A stretch of DNA of 40,616 nucleotides, taken from assembly GCA_013389055.1 (NCBI GenBank), contig JACAEC010000051.1, positions 1-40,616 of the forward strand, given 5' to 3'. Source of the DNA: Hydrogenophilaceae bacterium. Lineage in GTDB: Bacteria; Pseudomonadota; Gammaproteobacteria; Burkholderiales; Thiobacillaceae. Shown piece by piece: positions 2,031-16,151 of the stretch. A program made the position numbers and the translations under genes. The notes beneath the pieces were generated by a model, which was not told where the DNA came from, made no database searches, and was given only the letters and a program-made list of their open reading frames with translations. Position 1 is the stretch's first letter; each line of letters starts with the position of its first letter.

Positions 2031-2405
2031 ATGATCAACGTGACCAAGGAAGCTGCCGAGCAGATTCGCCAGGCCGCTGCCCAAAACGACTCGGAGAACC
2101 TCGGCCTGCGCATCGCAGCCAAGGTCAACGACGAAGGCATGCTGGAGATCGGCATGGGCTTCGACCAGGAGCGCAGCAACGACTCGGTGAACGAAGCCTG
2201 GGGTGTGACCGTGCTGGTCAATGCCCAGAGCGCCCCCTACCTGCAGGATGTGACCCTGGACTTCGCCGAGGTCTCCCCTGGCCAGATGGGCTTCGTCTTC
2301 TCCATGCCCGAACCGCAAGGCGGCGGTGGCGGTGGCTGCGGTTCCGGTGGCGGCGGTGGCGGCTGCGGTTCCGGCGGTTGCGGCTCCGGCGGCTGCGGCA
2401 GCTAG
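2031..2405 (+). CDS. dsrR: A-type Fe-S scaffold homologue DsrR with a Gly/Cys/Ser-rich C-terminal repeat tail
   Basis: HesB/IscA-like core MINVTKEAAEQIRQAAAQ...VTLDFAEVSPGQMGFVFSMPEPQ without cysteines; tail GGGGGGCGSGGGGGGCGSGGCGSGGCGS; position after dsrN. Confidence 0.8.
   Translation: MINVTKEAAEQIRQAAAQNDSENLGLRIAAKVNDEGMLEIGMGFDQERSNDSVNEAWGVTVLVNAQSAPYLQDVTLDFAEVSPGQMGFVFSMPEPQGGGGGGCGSGGGGGGCGSGGCGSGGCGS
2320..2402 (+). repeat. In-frame GGC/GGT-rich tandem repeat encoding the (Gly)n-Cys-Gly-Ser units of the dsrR tail
   Basis: Direct reading: two GGGGGGCGS units followed by two GGCGS units. Confidence 0.9.
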
Positions 2406-2422: not shown

Positions 2423-2450
2423 CGCCATGCCGGCAATCGCCGGCATGGCG
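2423..2450 (+). terminator. Strong hairpin downstream of dsrR
   Basis: CGCCATGCCGGC-AATC-GCCGGCATGGCG, perfect 12 bp arms, followed only by TTTC. Confidence 0.5.
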
Positions 2451-2504: not shown

Positions 2505-3935
2505 ATGGACTACTTACCGATATTCATGGATGTCCGCGGCCGTAGAGGTTTGGTGGTCGGCGGTGACGAGGTGGCTGCACGCAAGGCATCGCTGATGCTG
2601 AATGCCGGCGCCCAGGTGACCGTGCTCAGCCCCACCCCGCTGAGCTCCGCCTTCGGCCAGTTGACCGGCGCCGAGCGCCTGCACCATCGTCAAGCAGCGT
2701 TCTCGCCGGCAGAGCTCGACGGCTTCGACCTGGTCTATGCCGCGACCGAAGACGACGCGCTCAACCGCCAGGTCCATGAGGCCGCCCGCGCCCGCCACCT
2801 GCCGGTGAACGTGGTCGACACCCCCGAGCTGTGCAGCTTCATCATGCCCTCGATCATCGACCGCTCGCCGATCCTGGTGGCCATCGCCAGCGGCGGCGAG
2901 GCGCCGGTGCTCTCGCGCCTGCTGCGCGCCCGGCTGGAAACCCTGATCCCCTCCGCCTACGGCCGCCTGGCCCACTTGGCCGGCCGCTTCCGCGACAAGG
3001 TGCGCGAGCGCTTCCCCACCAGCGCCGAGCGGCGCAAGTTCTGGGAACGGGTGTTCCTGTCGCCGGTGGCCGAGATGGTCTTCGCCAGCCGCGAGCAGGA
3101 TGCCGAGGTCGCCCTCAACCGCCTGCTGGAAAGCGAATCGGCCGAGCTGCCGACCGGCGAGGTCTATCTGGTCGGCGCCGGCCCGGGCACCCCCGACCTG
3201 CTCACCTTCCGCGCCCTGCGCCTGATGCAGCAGTCCGACGTGGTGGTCTACGACCGCTTGGTGGCGCCGGCCATCCTCGACATGTGCCGGCGCGACGCCG
3301 ACCGCATCTACGTCGGCAAGGAACGCGACAACCACGCGGTGCCGCAAGACCAGATCAATCTCCTGTTGGTGCGCCTGGCCCAGGAGGGCAAGCGGGTGCT
3401 GCGCTTGAAAGGCGGCGACCCCTTCATCTTCGGCCGCGGCGGCGAGGAGATCGAGACCCTGACCGAACACGGTGTGCCCTTCCAGGTGGTGCCAGGCATC
3501 ACCGCCGCGAGCGGCGTCGCCTCCTATGCCGGCATCCCGCTCACCCATCGCGACTATGCCCAATCGGTCGCCTTCGTCACCGGCCACCTCAAGGACAACA
3601 CGGTCAATCTCGACTGGGCCTCGATCGGCCGGCCGAACCAGACCATCGTCATCTACATGGGCTTGAAGGGTTTGGCTTCGCTTTGCCAGGGCCTGATGCA
3701 GCACGGCTTGCCGGCCGACATGCCAGCCGCCATCGTGCAGCAGGGCACCACGCCCAACCAGCGCGTGGTCACCGCCACCCTGGGCACCCTGACCGAAGTG
3801 GCTGAGAAGGCTCAGTTGAAACCACCGACCCTGATCATCGTCGGCCACGTGGTCAAGCTGCATGAGAAGCTGGCTTGGTTCAAACCCGAAAGCCGCACCG
3901 CTGCGACGCCGCTGGATCAGCCGACCCACCTGTAA
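2505..3935 (+). CDS. cysG: Siroheme synthase (precorrin-2 dehydrogenase/ferrochelatase + uroporphyrinogen-III C-methyltransferase)
   Basis: N-terminal [32 protein letters not shown] and C-terminal SUMT motifs [34 protein letters not shown]. Confidence 0.95.
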
Positions 3936-3962: not shown

Positions 3963-6641
3963 TCAAAGTTCGCGCTGGATGCGCCGCACGCTCGGGTCTT
4001 CCGGGTGTGGCTCGCTGCGGAAGCCGAGCCTGCCGACCAGGCTGAGCATCTTGCGGTTGCTCGCCAGCACCTCACCCTCGATCAGCCGCATGCCCTTGGT
4101 CCGGGCAGTATCCATCAGCACCTCCATCAGCTTGTAGCCGATGCCCTTGCGCTGCCACTGGTCGGAGACGACCAGGGCGAACTCGCAGGATTCCGCATCC
4201 GGATTGATGGCATAACGCGCTACTCCCAGCTCGACCTCCTTGCCGTCCATCTCGGTCACCGCGATGAAGGCCATTTCCCGGTCGTAATCGATCTGGGTGA
4301 GGCGCACCAGCGTGTCCTGCTTGAGCTCCTGCAAGGTGTCCATGAAACGGAAATACTTGGTCTCGGGCGACAGGTTGCGCACGAAGGTCTGCTCGATCTC
4401 GGCGTCCTCCGGCCGGATCGGCCGGATGATGACGTTGCGGCCGTCGGCCAACTGCCACTTGGAGACCAGGTGGGCCGGGTAGGGATGGATGGCCATGTGG
4501 CCGTATCGGTCGGCGCCGGAAGGCCGCGCGGCGATGACGATGCGGGCATCGGCCGCCAGCACGCCATGCTCGTCGGCCAACAGCGGATTGATGTCGAGCT
4601 CCTGGATCCAGGGCAACTCGCAGGCCATTTCCGACACCTTGAGCAGCACCTCCTTCAGGTCCTCTTCCGCCACCGCCGGCAGATTGCGGAATTCGCCGAG
4701 CATGGGATAGATCCGCGTCCGCTGCATCAGGTCGCGCGCCAGGTAGGAGTTGAGCGGCGGCAGCGCGACCGAGCGATCCTTGAACACCTCGACGGCGACG
4801 CCGCCGGCACCGAAGGTGATGACCGGGCCGAGCACCGAATCGGAAGCGATGCCGATCAGCAATTCGCGCGCGTTCTGCTTGACCACCATGGGTTCGATCA
4901 CCACGCCTTCCAGCCGCGCCTCCGGCCGCACCTTGCGGACATGATCGATCAATTCCTGATAGGCGCTGCGCACCGCGTGTCCCGTGGTCAGGTTCAGGCG
5001 CACGCCGCCGACATCGGATTTGTGGCTGATGTCGGGCGAGTTGATCTTCATCGCCACCGGAAAGCCCAGCTGTTCCGCCATCAAAATGGCCTCCGACGGC
5101 GAGCGCACGATCATGGTCTGGGCGACCGGAATGTGGAAGGCGGCCAACAGCGCCTTCGATTCCACCTCGGTCAAGACATGGCGGCCCTCGGCCAGGGCGC
5201 CCTCGACGATCAGCTTCGCCCCCTCGGCGTCCGGCTCCGCCTGCTGCGACACCGGTCCCGGCGTCTGCATCAATTGCCGCTGGTTCTCGTAATAGGCGGC
5301 GAGGAAGGAGAACACTTCCACCGCAGGCTCCGGCGTGGTGAAGCTGGGAATATGCGCCTCGCGGAAGAGTTCGCGCGCCTCCTTCACCTGAATCTCGCCC
5401 ATCCAGCAGGCGAGCACCGGCTTTTGCGAATCCTTGGCCACCGCCACCAGGGCCTGCGCCGCCTGCAAAGGGTCGGTCATCGCCTGCGGCGTGAGCATGA
5501 CCAGCACGCCATCGACTGCGGCGTCGTTCAGGCAAGCCTGCACGGCCAAGCGATAGCGCTCGGCCCCGGCATCGCCCAGGATGTCGACCGGGTTGCCGTG
5601 CGACCAGGTCGCCGGCAGTCCGGCATCGAGCGTTCCGATCGTCTCCGGCGAGAGTTCGGCCAGGCGCACGCACAGGTCGCCCGTGCGGTCGGTCGCCATG
5701 ACCCCCGGCCCACCGCCATTGGTGACGATGGCCAGCCGGTTGCCGCTCGGCTTGATGTGGCTGGACAGCGCGCGCGCCGCGGCGAACAGTTGGGTAATGG
5801 TGTTGACCCTGACCACGCCGGCCCGCCGGACCAGGGCATCGAACACCGCGTCGGAGCCGACCAAGGCACCGGTGTGTGACTGGACCGCCTTGCTGCCCAC
5901 CTCGTGTCGGCCCACCTTGACCAGGATCACCGGCTTGAGCCGGGCCGCCGCGCGCAAGGCGCTGACGAAACTGCGGGCATCGCGGATGCCCTCGATATAG
6001 AGCAGGATGCTGCGGGTGGCCGGGTCCACCGCCAGGTAATCGAGAATCTCGCCGAAATCGATGTCGGCCGCCGCCCCGCTGGAGATGATGCTGGAAAAGC
6101 CGATGTCGTTCGCCGCCGCCCAGTCCAGCATGGCGGTGCAGATCGCCCCCGACTGGGAGACCAGGGCGAGATCGCCGCTGCGGGCGGCAGCCGGGCCGAA
6201 AGTGGCGTTGAGCCCGATCGCCGGCCGCTGGATGCCCAAACAGTTGGGGCCGATGAAGCGGATGCCGTGGCTCTTGGCGGCCTCGCGCACCTGCCGCTCG
6301 AGCGCGGCGCCCTGCTCGCCCAACTCGCGAAAGCCCGCCGACAACACGACGGCGAAGCGGATGCCGCGCTCGCCGCATTCGTGGATGATCGCCGTCACCG
6401 TGTGCGCCGGGGTGGCGATCACCACCACGTCAGGCGTCTCCGGCAGCTCGGCCGCCGAGCCGTAGCACTTCTGGCCGAACACCGTCGCGTGCTTGGGATT
6501 GACCGGATAGAGATGGCCGGCGAAGGTGGAATCGAGCAGGTTCTTGTAGATCACCCCGGCGACCGAGGCCTCGCGCTCGCTGGCGCCGAAGACCGCAACC
6601 GCGCGCGGATTGAACAGGGGATGCAGATAATGGCGGCCCAT
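3963..6641 (-). CDS. Pat-type protein acyltransferase: ADP-forming acyl-CoA synthetase-like domains + GNAT domain
   Basis: MGRHYLHPLFNPRAVAVFGASEREASVAG (CoA-binding), ATP-grasp-like middle, C-terminal GNAT (FALVVSDQWQRKGIGYKLMEVLMDTA). Start placed at the ATG at 6641 rather than the longer ORF start at 6734. Confidence 0.88.
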   Translation of the reverse strand: MGRHYLHPLFNPRAVAVFGASEREASVAGVIYKNLLDSTFAGHLYPVNPKHATVFGQKCYGSAAELPETPDVVVIATPAHTVTAIIHECGERGIRFAVVLSAGFRELGEQGAALERQVREAAKSHGIRFIGPNCLGIQRPAIGLNATFGPAAARSGDLALVSQSGAICTAMLDWAAANDIGFSSIISSGAAADIDFGEILDYLAVDPATRSILLYIEGIRDARSFVSALRAAARLKPVILVKVGRHEVGSKAVQSHTGALVGSDAVFDALVRRAGVVRVNTITQLFAAARALSSHIKPSGNRLAIVTNGGGPGVMATDRTGDLCVRLAELSPETIGTLDAGLPATWSHGNPVDILGDAGAERYRLAVQACLNDAAVDGVLVMLTPQAMTDPLQAAQALVAVAKDSQKPVLACWMGEIQVKEARELFREAHIPSFTTPEPAVEVFSFLAAYYENQRQLMQTPGPVSQQAEPDAEGAKLIVEGALAEGRHVLTEVESKALLAAFHIPVAQTMIVRSPSEAILMAEQLGFPVAMKINSPDISHKSDVGGVRLNLTTGHAVRSAYQELIDHVRKVRPEARLEGVVIEPMVVKQNARELLIGIASDSVLGPVITFGAGGVAVEVFKDRSVALPPLNSYLARDLMQRTRIYPMLGEFRNLPAVAEEDLKEVLLKVSEMACELPWIQELDINPLLADEHGVLAADARIVIAARPSGADRYGHMAIHPYPAHLVSKWQLADGRNVIIRPIRPEDAEIEQTFVRNLSPETKYFRFMDTLQELKQDTLVRLTQIDYDREMAFIAVTEMDGKEVELGVARYAINPDAESCEFALVVSDQWQRKGIGYKLMEVLMDTARTKGMRLIEGEVLASNRKMLSLVGRLGFRSEPHPEDPSVRRIQREL

Positions 6642-6739
6642 GATGTCTCGATACAGTGGCAATACACCAATGATACCGGGCCTGCTCTTACGCTGAGATG
6701 AATCGGGCGTATATTTATAAAAAAGCCGGGACAAATTCC

Positions 6740-7663
6740 ATGCACACCGCCTACATCACCCACAGCGCCTGCCTCAAACACGACATGGGGCCCTGGCACC
6801 CGGAAGCGCCGGCCCGGCTGCGCGCCATCGACGACCGGCTGCATGCCGCCCATCTCTACGACTTCCTGCGTCACTACGACGCCCCCCTGGTCGAGCCGGA
6901 GGCCTTGCTGCGGGTGCATGACGCCGACTATATCGCGGCCATCGAACAGGCAGCGCCGAGCGAAGGGCTGATCCAGCTCGACGGCGACACCGCCATGTGC
7001 CCCTACACCCTGGAAGCGGCCCGCCGGGCCGCCGGCGGCGCCGTGCTGGCGGTGGACAAGGTGATGGCCGGCGAGGTGGCCAACGCCTTCGTCGCCGTGC
7101 GCCCGCCCGGCCACCACGCCAGCCGCAACCAGGCCATGGGCTTCTGCATCTTCAACAACGTGGCGGTGGCTGCCGCCCACGTCCTGGCCGCGCACGGCCT
7201 CGCCCGCGTCGCCATCGTCGACTTCGACGTCCACCACGGCAACGGCACCGAGGCCATCTTCGCCGAGGAGCCGCGCCTGCTGCTCTGCTCCACCTTCCAG
7301 CACCCCTATTACCCCCATTGCGGGGCCGACACCGTGAGCGAACACATCGTCCCCGTGCCGCTGCCCGCCGGCACCGACGGCACCGCCTATCGCGCCGCCT
7401 TCGAGGCCCGGGTGCTGCCCGCACTGGAAAAATTCAAACCGGAATTCATCTTCTGCTCGGCCGGCTTCGACGGCCACCGCGAGGACGACCTCGCGCATTT
7501 CCGCCTGGTCGAGGCCGACTACGCCTGGATCACTGAACAGGTCATGGCCGTGGCTGAACGCCAGGCCCAAGGCCGCATCGTTTCGCTACTGGAGGGGGGT
7601 TACAACCTCAGCGCCCTGGGCCGCAGCGTGGCGGCGCACATCAAGATGCTGGCGGGCTTGTGA
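6740..7663 (+). CDS. Histone deacetylase / acetoin utilisation (AcuC/AphA) superfamily deacetylase
   Basis: MHTAYITHSACLKHDMGPWHPEAPARLRAI; RPPGHHASRNQAMGFCIFNNVAVAA; DFDVHHGNGTEAIF; SAGFDGHREDDLA; LEGGYNLSALG. Internal ATG chosen over the ORF start at 6698. Confidence 0.93.
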   Translation: MHTAYITHSACLKHDMGPWHPEAPARLRAIDDRLHAAHLYDFLRHYDAPLVEPEALLRVHDADYIAAIEQAAPSEGLIQLDGDTAMCPYTLEAARRAAGGAVLAVDKVMAGEVANAFVAVRPPGHHASRNQAMGFCIFNNVAVAAAHVLAAHGLARVAIVDFDVHHGNGTEAIFAEEPRLLLCSTFQHPYYPHCGADTVSEHIVPVPLPAGTDGTAYRAAFEARVLPALEKFKPEFIFCSAGFDGHREDDLAHFRLVEADYAWITEQVMAVAERQAQGRIVSLLEGGYNLSALGRSVAAHIKMLAGL

Positions 7664-13330: not shown

Positions 13331-13406
13331 GGACAAACCGCCGATTTAAACCATAATGAAAATAGGTTTTCTTGTAGATTCATCCACTCACTTGAAAGGA
13401 CGCACC

Positions 13407-13709
13407 ATGAAGAAATTGACCCTCGCCTTCGTCGCCGCCGGTCTTGTCATCGCCGGCCCCGTACTCGCCGATGAGGCCATGGCGAAAAAGAACATGTGCA
13501 TGAACTGCCACAGCGTCGACAAGAAGCTGATGGGCCCTTCGTTCAAGGACGTCGCCGCGAAGTACAAGGGCAACAAGGACGCCGAGAAGATTCTGGCCGA
13601 GAGCATCGTCAAGGGCAGCAAAGACAAGTTCGGCAAGATCCCGATGCCGCCGCAGGCCAAGGCCGCCGGCGATGCCGCCGCCTTGGCCAAGTGGATCATG
13701 AGCCTGTAA
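13407..13709 (+). CDS. Small periplasmic monohaem cytochrome c (c551/c552-like)
   Basis: Signal peptide MKKLTLAFVAAGLVIAGPVLA, haem motif CMNCH, distal Met in IPMPPQ. Start moved to 13407. Confidence 0.92.
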   Translation: MKKLTLAFVAAGLVIAGPVLADEAMAKKNMCMNCHSVDKKLMGPSFKDVAAKYKGNKDAEKILAESIVKGSKDKFGKIPMPPQAKAAGDAAALAKWIMSL

Positions 13710-13728
13710 GCGGCGCCGACCACACGAC

Positions 13729-13756
13729 AAAAAGCGGGGCACGCCCCGCTTTTTTT
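13729..13756 (+). terminator. Rho-independent terminator after cytochrome c gene
   Basis: AAAGCGGGGC-A-CGCCCCGCTTTTTTT. Confidence 0.9.
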
Positions 13757-13778
13757 ATGCTCGTCCCTCCCCCTTGGC

Positions 13779-13838
13779 TATCGATCGACTATATCGATCG
13801 ATATCATCGTAACTATTCATTATCTAAATCCATTAGAT
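13779..13838. promoter_or_regulatory. Two dyads upstream of ahpC
   Basis: TATCGATCGA-CTATA-TCGATCGATA (13779-13803) and ATCTAA-ATCCA-TTAGAT (13822-13838), both with 5 bp spacers. Confidence 0.5.
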
Positions 13839-13900
13839 CTCCCTAATATTCGCTCCGTCGCTTTCAACCAAGCCGACTCAACCGAACCCAAGGAGAAAAC

Positions 13901-14467
13901 ATGCAGTCTTTGATCAACACCGAAATCAAGCCCTTCAAGGCCACCGCTTACCAGAACGGCAAGTTCGAGCACGTGAGCGACGAGGATCTGAAAGGCAAGT
14001 GGTCCGTGGTCTTCTTCTACCCGGCCGACTTCACCTTCGTCTGCCCGACCGAGCTGGGCGACCTGGCCGACAACTACGCCGAGTTCAAGAAGCTGGGCGT
14101 GGAGATCTACGCCGTGTCCACCGACACCCACTTCACCCACAAGGCCTGGCACGACACCTCCGAGACCATCGGCAAGATCCAGTTCCCGATGATCGGCGAC
14201 CCCACCGGCGTCATCACCCGCAACTTCGGCGTGATGATCGAGGAAGCCGGCCTGGCCGAGCGCGGCACTTTCGTGATCGACCCGCAGGGCAAGATCCAGA
14301 TCATCGAGATCAACGCCGGCGGCATCGGCCGCGACGCCGCGGAGCTGTTGCGCAAGGTCAAGGCTGCCCAGTACGTGGCCGCCCACCCGGGCGAAGTCTG
14401 CCCGGCCAAGTGGAAAGAGGGCGAGGCCACCCTGGCCCCGTCGCTGGACCTGGTCGGCAAGATCTAA
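13901..14467 (+). CDS. ahpC: Alkyl hydroperoxide reductase subunit C (2-Cys peroxiredoxin)
   Basis: [50 protein letters not shown]. Confidence 0.96.
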
Positions 14468-14478
14468 GTCATCCCTTT

Positions 14479-14502
14479 CCCTCCCCCTCGGGGGAGGGTT
14501 TT
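14479..14502 (+). terminator. Intergenic hairpin between ahpC and ahpF (partial terminator/attenuator)
   Basis: CCCTCCCC-CTCG-GGGGAGGG followed by TTTT. Confidence 0.55.
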
Positions 14503-14588
14503 CCCAGATCGCAATACCCAAGGCGCTGGATGTACGCAAACACCCGCGCCGACGCCTTCGTATTGCCCTCTGAATCAGGAGAAACACC

Positions 14589-16151
14589 ATGCTGGACGCC
14601 AACATCAAGACCCAATTGAAGGCCTATCTGGAAAAGCTCGTGGACCCGATCGAGCTGGTGGCCTCGCTCGACGACAGCGACAAGTCGCGCGAGATGCGCG
14701 GCCTGCTGGAGGACATCGCCAGCCTGTCGGACAAGGTCGCCCTGCTGGAGAACGGCAACGACGCCCGCCGCCCCTCCTTCGCCATCGGCCGCGTCGGCGA
14801 GCCGGCCCGCATCCGCTTCGCCGGCCTGCCCATGGGCCACGAGTTCACCTCGCTGATCCTGGCCCTGCTCCAGGCCAGCGGCTATGCGCCAAAGTTCTCC
14901 GCGGAACAGATCGAACAGATTCGCGGCATGACGGGCCAATTCCGCTTCGAGACCTACATCTCGCTGTCCTGCCACAACTGCCCGGACGTGGTGCAGGCCC
15001 TCAACGCCATGGCCGCGCTCAATCCCAAGATCCAGCACGTGATGATCGACGGCGCCTTGTTCCAGGACGAGGTGAACACCCGCCAGATCATGGCCGTACC
15101 CAGCGTCTATCTCAACGGCGAGCCCTTCGGCAACGGCCGCATGACCATCGAGGAAATCGTCGCCAAGCTCGACACCGGCGCCGAGGCGCGGGATGCCGCC
15201 AAGCTGGCGGAGAAGGCACCGTTCGACGTGCTGGTGGTGGGCGGCGGGCCGGCCGGCGCGGCAGCGGCGGTGTACGCCGCGCGCAAGGGCATCCGCACCG
15301 GCGTGCTGGCCGAGCGCTTCGGCGGCCAGGTGATGGACACCCTGGCCATCGAGAACCTCATCTCCGTCCCCCATACCGACGGCCCCAAGCTGGGCCGCGC
15401 CCTGGAAGAGCACGTCAAGGAATACGAGGTGGACATCATGAACCTGCAGCGCGCCGAGGCCCTGATTCCCGGCGAGGCCGGCAGCTTCCATGAGGTGCGC
15501 CTGGCCAACGGCGCGGTGCTCAAGGCCCGCGCCTTGATCCTGGCCACCGGCGCCCGCTGGCGGGAGCTGAACGTGCCCGGCGAGCAGGAATACCGCGGCC
15601 GCGGCGTCGCCTACTGCCCGCATTGCGACGGCCCCCTGTTCAAGGGCAAGCACGTTGCCGTGGTCGGCGGCGGCAACTCCGGCGTGGAGGCGGCGATCGA
15701 CCTGGCCGGCATCGTCGGCCACGTCACCCTGCTCGAATTCGGCGACGCCCTGCGCGCCGACGCGGTGTTGCAGAACAAGCTCTACAGCCTGGCCAACGTC
15801 ACCGTGATCAAGAGCGCCCAGACCACCGAGGTCACCGGCGCGCAAGGCAAGGTCAACGGCCTCACCTACACCGACCGCACCACCGGCCAGAGCCAGCACA
15901 TCGCCCTGGAAGGCGTGTTCGTCCAGATCGGCCTGCTGCCCAATACCGACTGGCTGAAGGGCGTGGTCAATCTGTCCCGCTTCGGCGAGATCGAGGTCGA
16001 TGCCAAGGGCCAGACCAACGTACCCGGTATCTTCGGCGCCGGCGACTGCACCACCGTGCCCTACAAGCAGATCATCATTGCCATGGCCGAAGGCGCCAAA
16101 GCCAGCCTCTCGGCCTTCGACCACCTGATCCGCAGTTCGGCGCCGGCCTGA
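14589..16151 (+). CDS. ahpF: Alkyl hydroperoxide reductase subunit F
   Basis: N-terminal glutaredoxin-like fold with [15 protein letters not shown] motif [21 protein letters not shown], redox CPHCDGPLF. Confidence 0.96.

Follow-up and report, generated by a model that had tools for sequence, protein, structure and literature searches.

The role of DsrR in sulfur oxidation has long been unclear, and the sole characterised protein lacks metal ligands. The dsrR gene in the window, by which we mean the whole 40,616-nt stretch of DNA analysed here, encodes a DsrR that ends in a tail with four cysteines. The question raised by this locus is whether these cysteines have a function or belong to a low-complexity extension. 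As set out below, comparison of homologous proteins suggests that the conserved four-Cys tail marks a hidden metal- or sulfur-binding site in many betaproteobacterial DsrR.

A DsrR protein with all of its cysteines in the tail

The gene dsrR (2031–2405, forward strand) was assigned from its ORF and translation, from a match to Pfam PF01521 and from 2k4z as best match in both sequence and fold. Its product of 124 amino acids comprises a Cys-free A-type (IscA-like) core, residues 1–96 (2031–2318, forward strand), followed by a Gly/Cys/Ser tail, residues 97–124 (2319–2402, forward strand). The tail reads GGGGGGCGSGGGGGGCGSGGCGSGGCGS and contains exactly four Cys, a count conserved across relatives: Cys103 (2337–2339), Cys112 (2364–2366), Cys117 (2379–2381) and Cys122 (2394–2396), each encoded by TGC on the forward strand and separated by 8, 4 and 4 residues. 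The sequence-only reading of this DNA had described a Cys-free A-type core with every Cys in the tail; it was right in every detail of the ORF, its coordinates and the tail, and PF01521 and 2k4z support the core.

The score against PF01521 is just above the cut-off (26.9 versus 26.3 bits), while scores against the IscA, SufA and ErpA equivalog profiles (30–36 bits) are far under theirs (117–151 bits). The best match in the PDB is Allochromatium vinosum DsrR, 2k4z (sequence E-value 3.5e-13, fold E-value 1.1e-7), and the fold also matches IscA (1r94, 1.3e-5) and SufA (2d2a, 1.4e-5). AlphaFold2 predicted the core, a helix followed by six strands, with a pLDDT of about 90. Most of the tail lies below 50 (residues 96–113 throughout), so it is predicted to be disordered when alone. 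The structure prediction proposed earlier thus gave a confident A-type core and a disordered tail.

The core fold and PF01521 are common to this protein and to IscA, SufA and ErpA. These A-type carriers have three conserved Cys, Cys35 and those of the C-terminal CGCG, whereas the window DsrR has neither Cys35 nor a CGCG end. In line with the earlier statement that characterised DsrR proteins lack the canonical Fe-S ligands, the core of the window protein has no Cys, and none of 252 distinct DsrR sequences has Cys at the Cys35 column. With this residue missing throughout the set, the tail Cys do not supplement a complete A-type site but occupy the place of the IscA CGCG end, in larger number. 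A. vinosum DsrR is similar in having an A-type core without Cys at this position, but it ends in the Cys-free NPRDPTYRPPSGG (the last residues of the query matched 2k4z exactly) where the window protein has a 28-residue four-Cys tail. By similarity, position and absent ligands the window protein is a DsrR, and by its tail it is a variant.

The DNA encoding the tail is a tandem repeat. A degenerate DNA search of the whole genome for the CGSGGCG motif found it in dsrR only, and a tag shared with other proteins of the genome was rejected on this basis.

Genomic context

The gene order in the window is dsrP-like 3′ end, dsrN, dsrR, cysG, all on the forward strand. The first is the 3′ end of a gene for an NrfD/DsrP-like membrane subunit (106–504; positions 250–310 of the 313 of the PF03916 profile). 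Directly upstream of dsrR is a dsrN-like cobyrinate/siroheme a,c-diamide synthase gene (615–2000; NCBIfam PRK01077, 452 bits, cut-off 254), and 3′ of dsrR is the siroheme synthase gene cysG (2505–3935; PRK10637, 650 bits). DsrR genes in general follow dsrN: almost every homologous locus has dsrN upstream and in the same orientation. Most four-Cys loci have cysG downstream, but so do 12 loci whose DsrR has 0 or 1 tail Cys; because of these 12, the cysG neighbourhood was rejected as the cause of the tail. Elsewhere in the genome, a separate contig has a dsrA fragment at its end. An origin from a phage, plasmid or viral contig was rejected, with no matches at the sensitivity used.

Other features of the window were recorded. 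Between dsrR and cysG there is a perfect 11-bp inverted repeat, GCCATGCCGGC-AATC-GCCGGCATGGC (2424–2449, forward strand), which occurs once in the window; the region 2400–2480 folds far better than shuffled sequences (z = −4.7) and has no long T run. Further downstream, a 923-aa acyl-CoA-ligase/ATP-grasp protein with a C-terminal GNAT domain (Pat-like; 3963–6734, reverse strand) is divergent to a histone-deacetylase-family protein (6698–7663, forward strand), the two overlapping at the listed start of the former; they are a possible protein acetylation/deacetylation pair. Genes for a small cytochrome c, an AhpC-type peroxiredoxin and an AhpF-like reductase follow one another at 13356–16151 (forward strand).

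The four-Cys tail among relatives

Relatives were sought with core-only queries, which kept the tail from biasing the sample. In the samples DsrR sequences scored at least 64.7 bits and IscA/ErpA at most about 56. A DsrR was detected in five members of the genus, one of them the source of the window, and each has four tail Cys; the spacings are 8-4-4, 8-4-4, 10-4-4, 10-4-4 and 4-4-4. About 20 further genomes of the same family also have exactly four. Tailed DsrR proteins within the family are nearly all four-Cys; in one genus (g6) the protein ends in an acidic stretch free of Cys, and Thiobacillus likewise has no tail Cys. The tail is thus neither confined to one strain nor Cys-free in close relatives, the findings that had been named as counting against a function.

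Scanning GTDB genomes yielded 80 named DsrR loci, almost all from Betaproteobacteria and spanning Thiobacillaceae, Hydrogenophilales, Rhodocyclaceae, Sulfuricella, Gallionellaceae and others. In most of them by far the tail has exactly four Cys, with zero in Thiobacillus relatives and in locus L110. The window protein is not a one-off variant, four Cys being found in many betaproteobacterial DsrR. Four-Cys tails are present in isolate or complete genomes, namely Parasulfuritortus cantonensis (L068), Sulfurisoma (L088) and AP021857.1 (L099). Because this type of tail recurs in the genus (four other genomes), in many genera and in isolate genomes, a strain-specific tail or an assembly artefact was rejected.

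Tails in Rhodocyclaceae follow the motif C-x(n)-C-x2-C-x3-C with far less Gly repeat, as in CSGRDTKSCGPCGGGCA (L081); such low-repeat tails with four Cys were seen in L081, L085 and L101. It had been proposed that repeat expansion might have rebuilt a flexible thiol array. The flexible array fits the comparative data, but the idea that the thiols arose by expansion is not favoured, since four Cys also occur with little repeat. Because the Rhodocyclaceae tails keep four Cys in this way, the Gly-Ser repeat looks like padding, specific to certain lineages, around a four-Cys motif.

A class-wide sample of 369 genomes, followed by samples at order and family level, brought in mostly gammaproteobacterial DsrR. 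Most of these have a short Cys-free NPNDPNYxPP end, the type of tail also found in A. vinosum DsrR. In one gammaproteobacterial family (f150) the tail Cys count varies, being 4, 3, 1 or 0. Six of its DsrR proteins (L179, L273, L275, L277, L279 and L280) have three tail Cys (CGSGGCSSC or CGCGSGGC) after an NPNDxNYxPP-like end, and in the sister species L197 and L281 a fourth Cys sits at the Tyr of NPNDxNY. No mention of a DsrR Cys tail was found in the literature searched, which covered few subscription papers.

Number and position of the tail cysteines

The alignment of DsrR homologues proposed earlier gave a tail Cys count conserved at four and a variable spacing. Among the 252 distinct sequences, 129 have no tail Cys, 7 have one, none has two, 10 have three, 105 have four and 1 has five. 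One of the ten three-Cys cases (L084) looks frameshifted against its relatives, and in the single exception above four (L063, L021/L285) the fifth Cys forms a CC pair (GGCCS). The 105 four-Cys tails show 49 different spacings, the three spacers ranging over 2–15, 1–10 and 2–13 residues. Among tails with at least two Cys the variance of the count was 0.089, compared with 3.18 under independent residue draws, and 91% had exactly four, compared with an expected 19%. Cys gain by mutation is easy, since a single point change would turn 77% of the non-Cys codons in the tail into Cys codons.

Pairs of sequences on disjoint branches were drawn from tails with at least three Cys, so that pairs with full loss are excluded. 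The count was the same in 42 of the 49 pairs and the spacing in 13. Cys columns had changed in 29 of 206 cases (14%) and other columns in 293 of 896 (33%; Fisher p = 4e-8), a comparison to be read with the aligner's own preference for Cys-Cys pairing in mind. At least 12 changes between ≤1 and ≥3 tail Cys were needed on the core tree, which is poorly resolved (92 columns). From these changes the tail was probably gained or lost repeatedly. All of these statistics come from related sequences under uneven sampling. Losses of tail Cys are nearly all-or-none. The four-Cys tail is more than chance, its count being kept across many genera while spacing and residues vary, and selection looks to have acted on the number of thiols in the tail and not on their position.

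Function of the tail

We consider coordination of an Fe-S cluster or metal by the four tail thiolates to have about an even chance of being the correct explanation. With Cys35 and the CGCG end, the ligands usual in A-type proteins, both missing, the flexible Gly-rich tail would present four thiolates instead, and these would coordinate an Fe-S cluster or a thiophilic metal centre of another kind. Sites of the 4Fe-4S, 2Fe-2S and Zn or Fe tetrathiolate types usually have four ligands. The property under selection would then be four-thiolate coordination itself; the ligand would presumably be Fe-S rather than Zn or sulfur, and DsrR might have a carrier or sensor role linked to reverse-Dsr maturation, with a Dsr protein as its putative client. 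In favour of this explanation we counted the pinned Cys count, the low-repeat tails, the isolate genomes, the DsrR/IscA fold and the position next to siroheme genes. Counted against it were the spacer ranges, which are loose for a metal site, the absence of a folded tail site in the AlphaFold2 model, which was made without metals, and the report that A. vinosum DsrR binds neither iron nor Fe-S, although that protein has no tail Cys. The last statement is the title of Grimm et al. 2010 as cited in PMC11406059. Because A. vinosum DsrR comes from a Cys-free lineage, this negative result need not hold for the window DsrR. Tail-less DsrR is common (129 of 252) and is found also in Thiobacillus relatives, so Dsr sulfur oxidation does not, as a general rule, depend on a four-Cys tail.

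The main rival to a metal ligand set is a persulfide-carrying arm, and Zn or redox switching was named as a main rival as well. As an arm, the tail thiols would pick up persulfide or polysulfide from the DsrEFH/DsrC relay and either pass it on or act as a sensor of it, in the manner of the DsrC arm. DsrC, like DsrR, is a protein of the Dsr pathway and has redox-capable Cys on a mobile, flexible C-terminus, but its fold differs and its two Cys are at fixed positions, whereas the window DsrR has four with free spacing. The location of dsrR within the dsr operon of sulfur oxidisers agrees with such an arm, as do the flexibility of the tail and its tolerant spacing, which suit a swinging thiol. 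PMC11406059 reports that DsrR expression in A. vinosum correlates with DsrEFH and DsrL, which also favours it. One or two Cys would be enough for a carrier, however, and a strict count of four, with almost no one- or two-Cys tails, is not what an arm predicts. We regard this function as unlikely, though still a serious contender.

Rated somewhat lower, and also as unlikely, is a Zn or soft-metal buffer or a disulfide redox switch, in which two disulfides, or a Zn(Cys)4 site that opens on oxidation, would control a regulatory effect of DsrR. PMC11406059 also describes a part for A. vinosum DsrR in the regulation of sulfur oxidation, and four nearly all-or-none Cys in a flexible tail could serve a switch of this kind. 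The spacing fits no known Zn motif, and short Gly-rich spacers are unusual in Zn domains.

The earlier alternative of a mere low-complexity extension does not fit the comparative data. Slippage in the tandem repeat could have produced a neutral, disordered tail of variable length and spacing with Cys of no role, but it would not be expected to pin the count at four, to preserve four Cys where the repeat is slight, or to remove nearly all of them together when they are lost. Such an extension is already strongly disfavoured, and we consider it very unlikely. A microcin B17-like substrate, its Gly-Cys-Ser tail turned into thiazoles and oxazoles by a cyclodehydratase, was suggested by a resemblance to Gly/Ser/Cys-rich modified peptides that served as a lead only; it was rejected as extremely improbable, since no YcaO (PF02624) was found in the genome, which is 95% complete, with the control positive in 5 of 14 genomes.

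Implications for DsrR

Nearly half of the DsrR proteins collected, in a sample weighted to betaproteobacteria, have a tail with three to five Cys, and for this reason the negative Fe-S result may not transfer. We propose, tentatively and at somewhat less than even chances, that DsrR of betaproteobacterial sulfur oxidisers is a cluster or sulfur carrier of new design. In this design the buried A-type ligands would have been replaced by a disordered four-thiol tail, with the number of ligands under selection and their position free, and the whole tail would have come or gone as one piece on several occasions. If this is true, the description of DsrR as a protein without Fe-S function would be valid for Cys-free lineages only. 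The tail is also a clear case in which the number of a residue is conserved in a predicted disordered segment while sequence and spacing are not. Since related organisms carry members of this one family that have the tail and members that lack it, a direct comparison is at hand.
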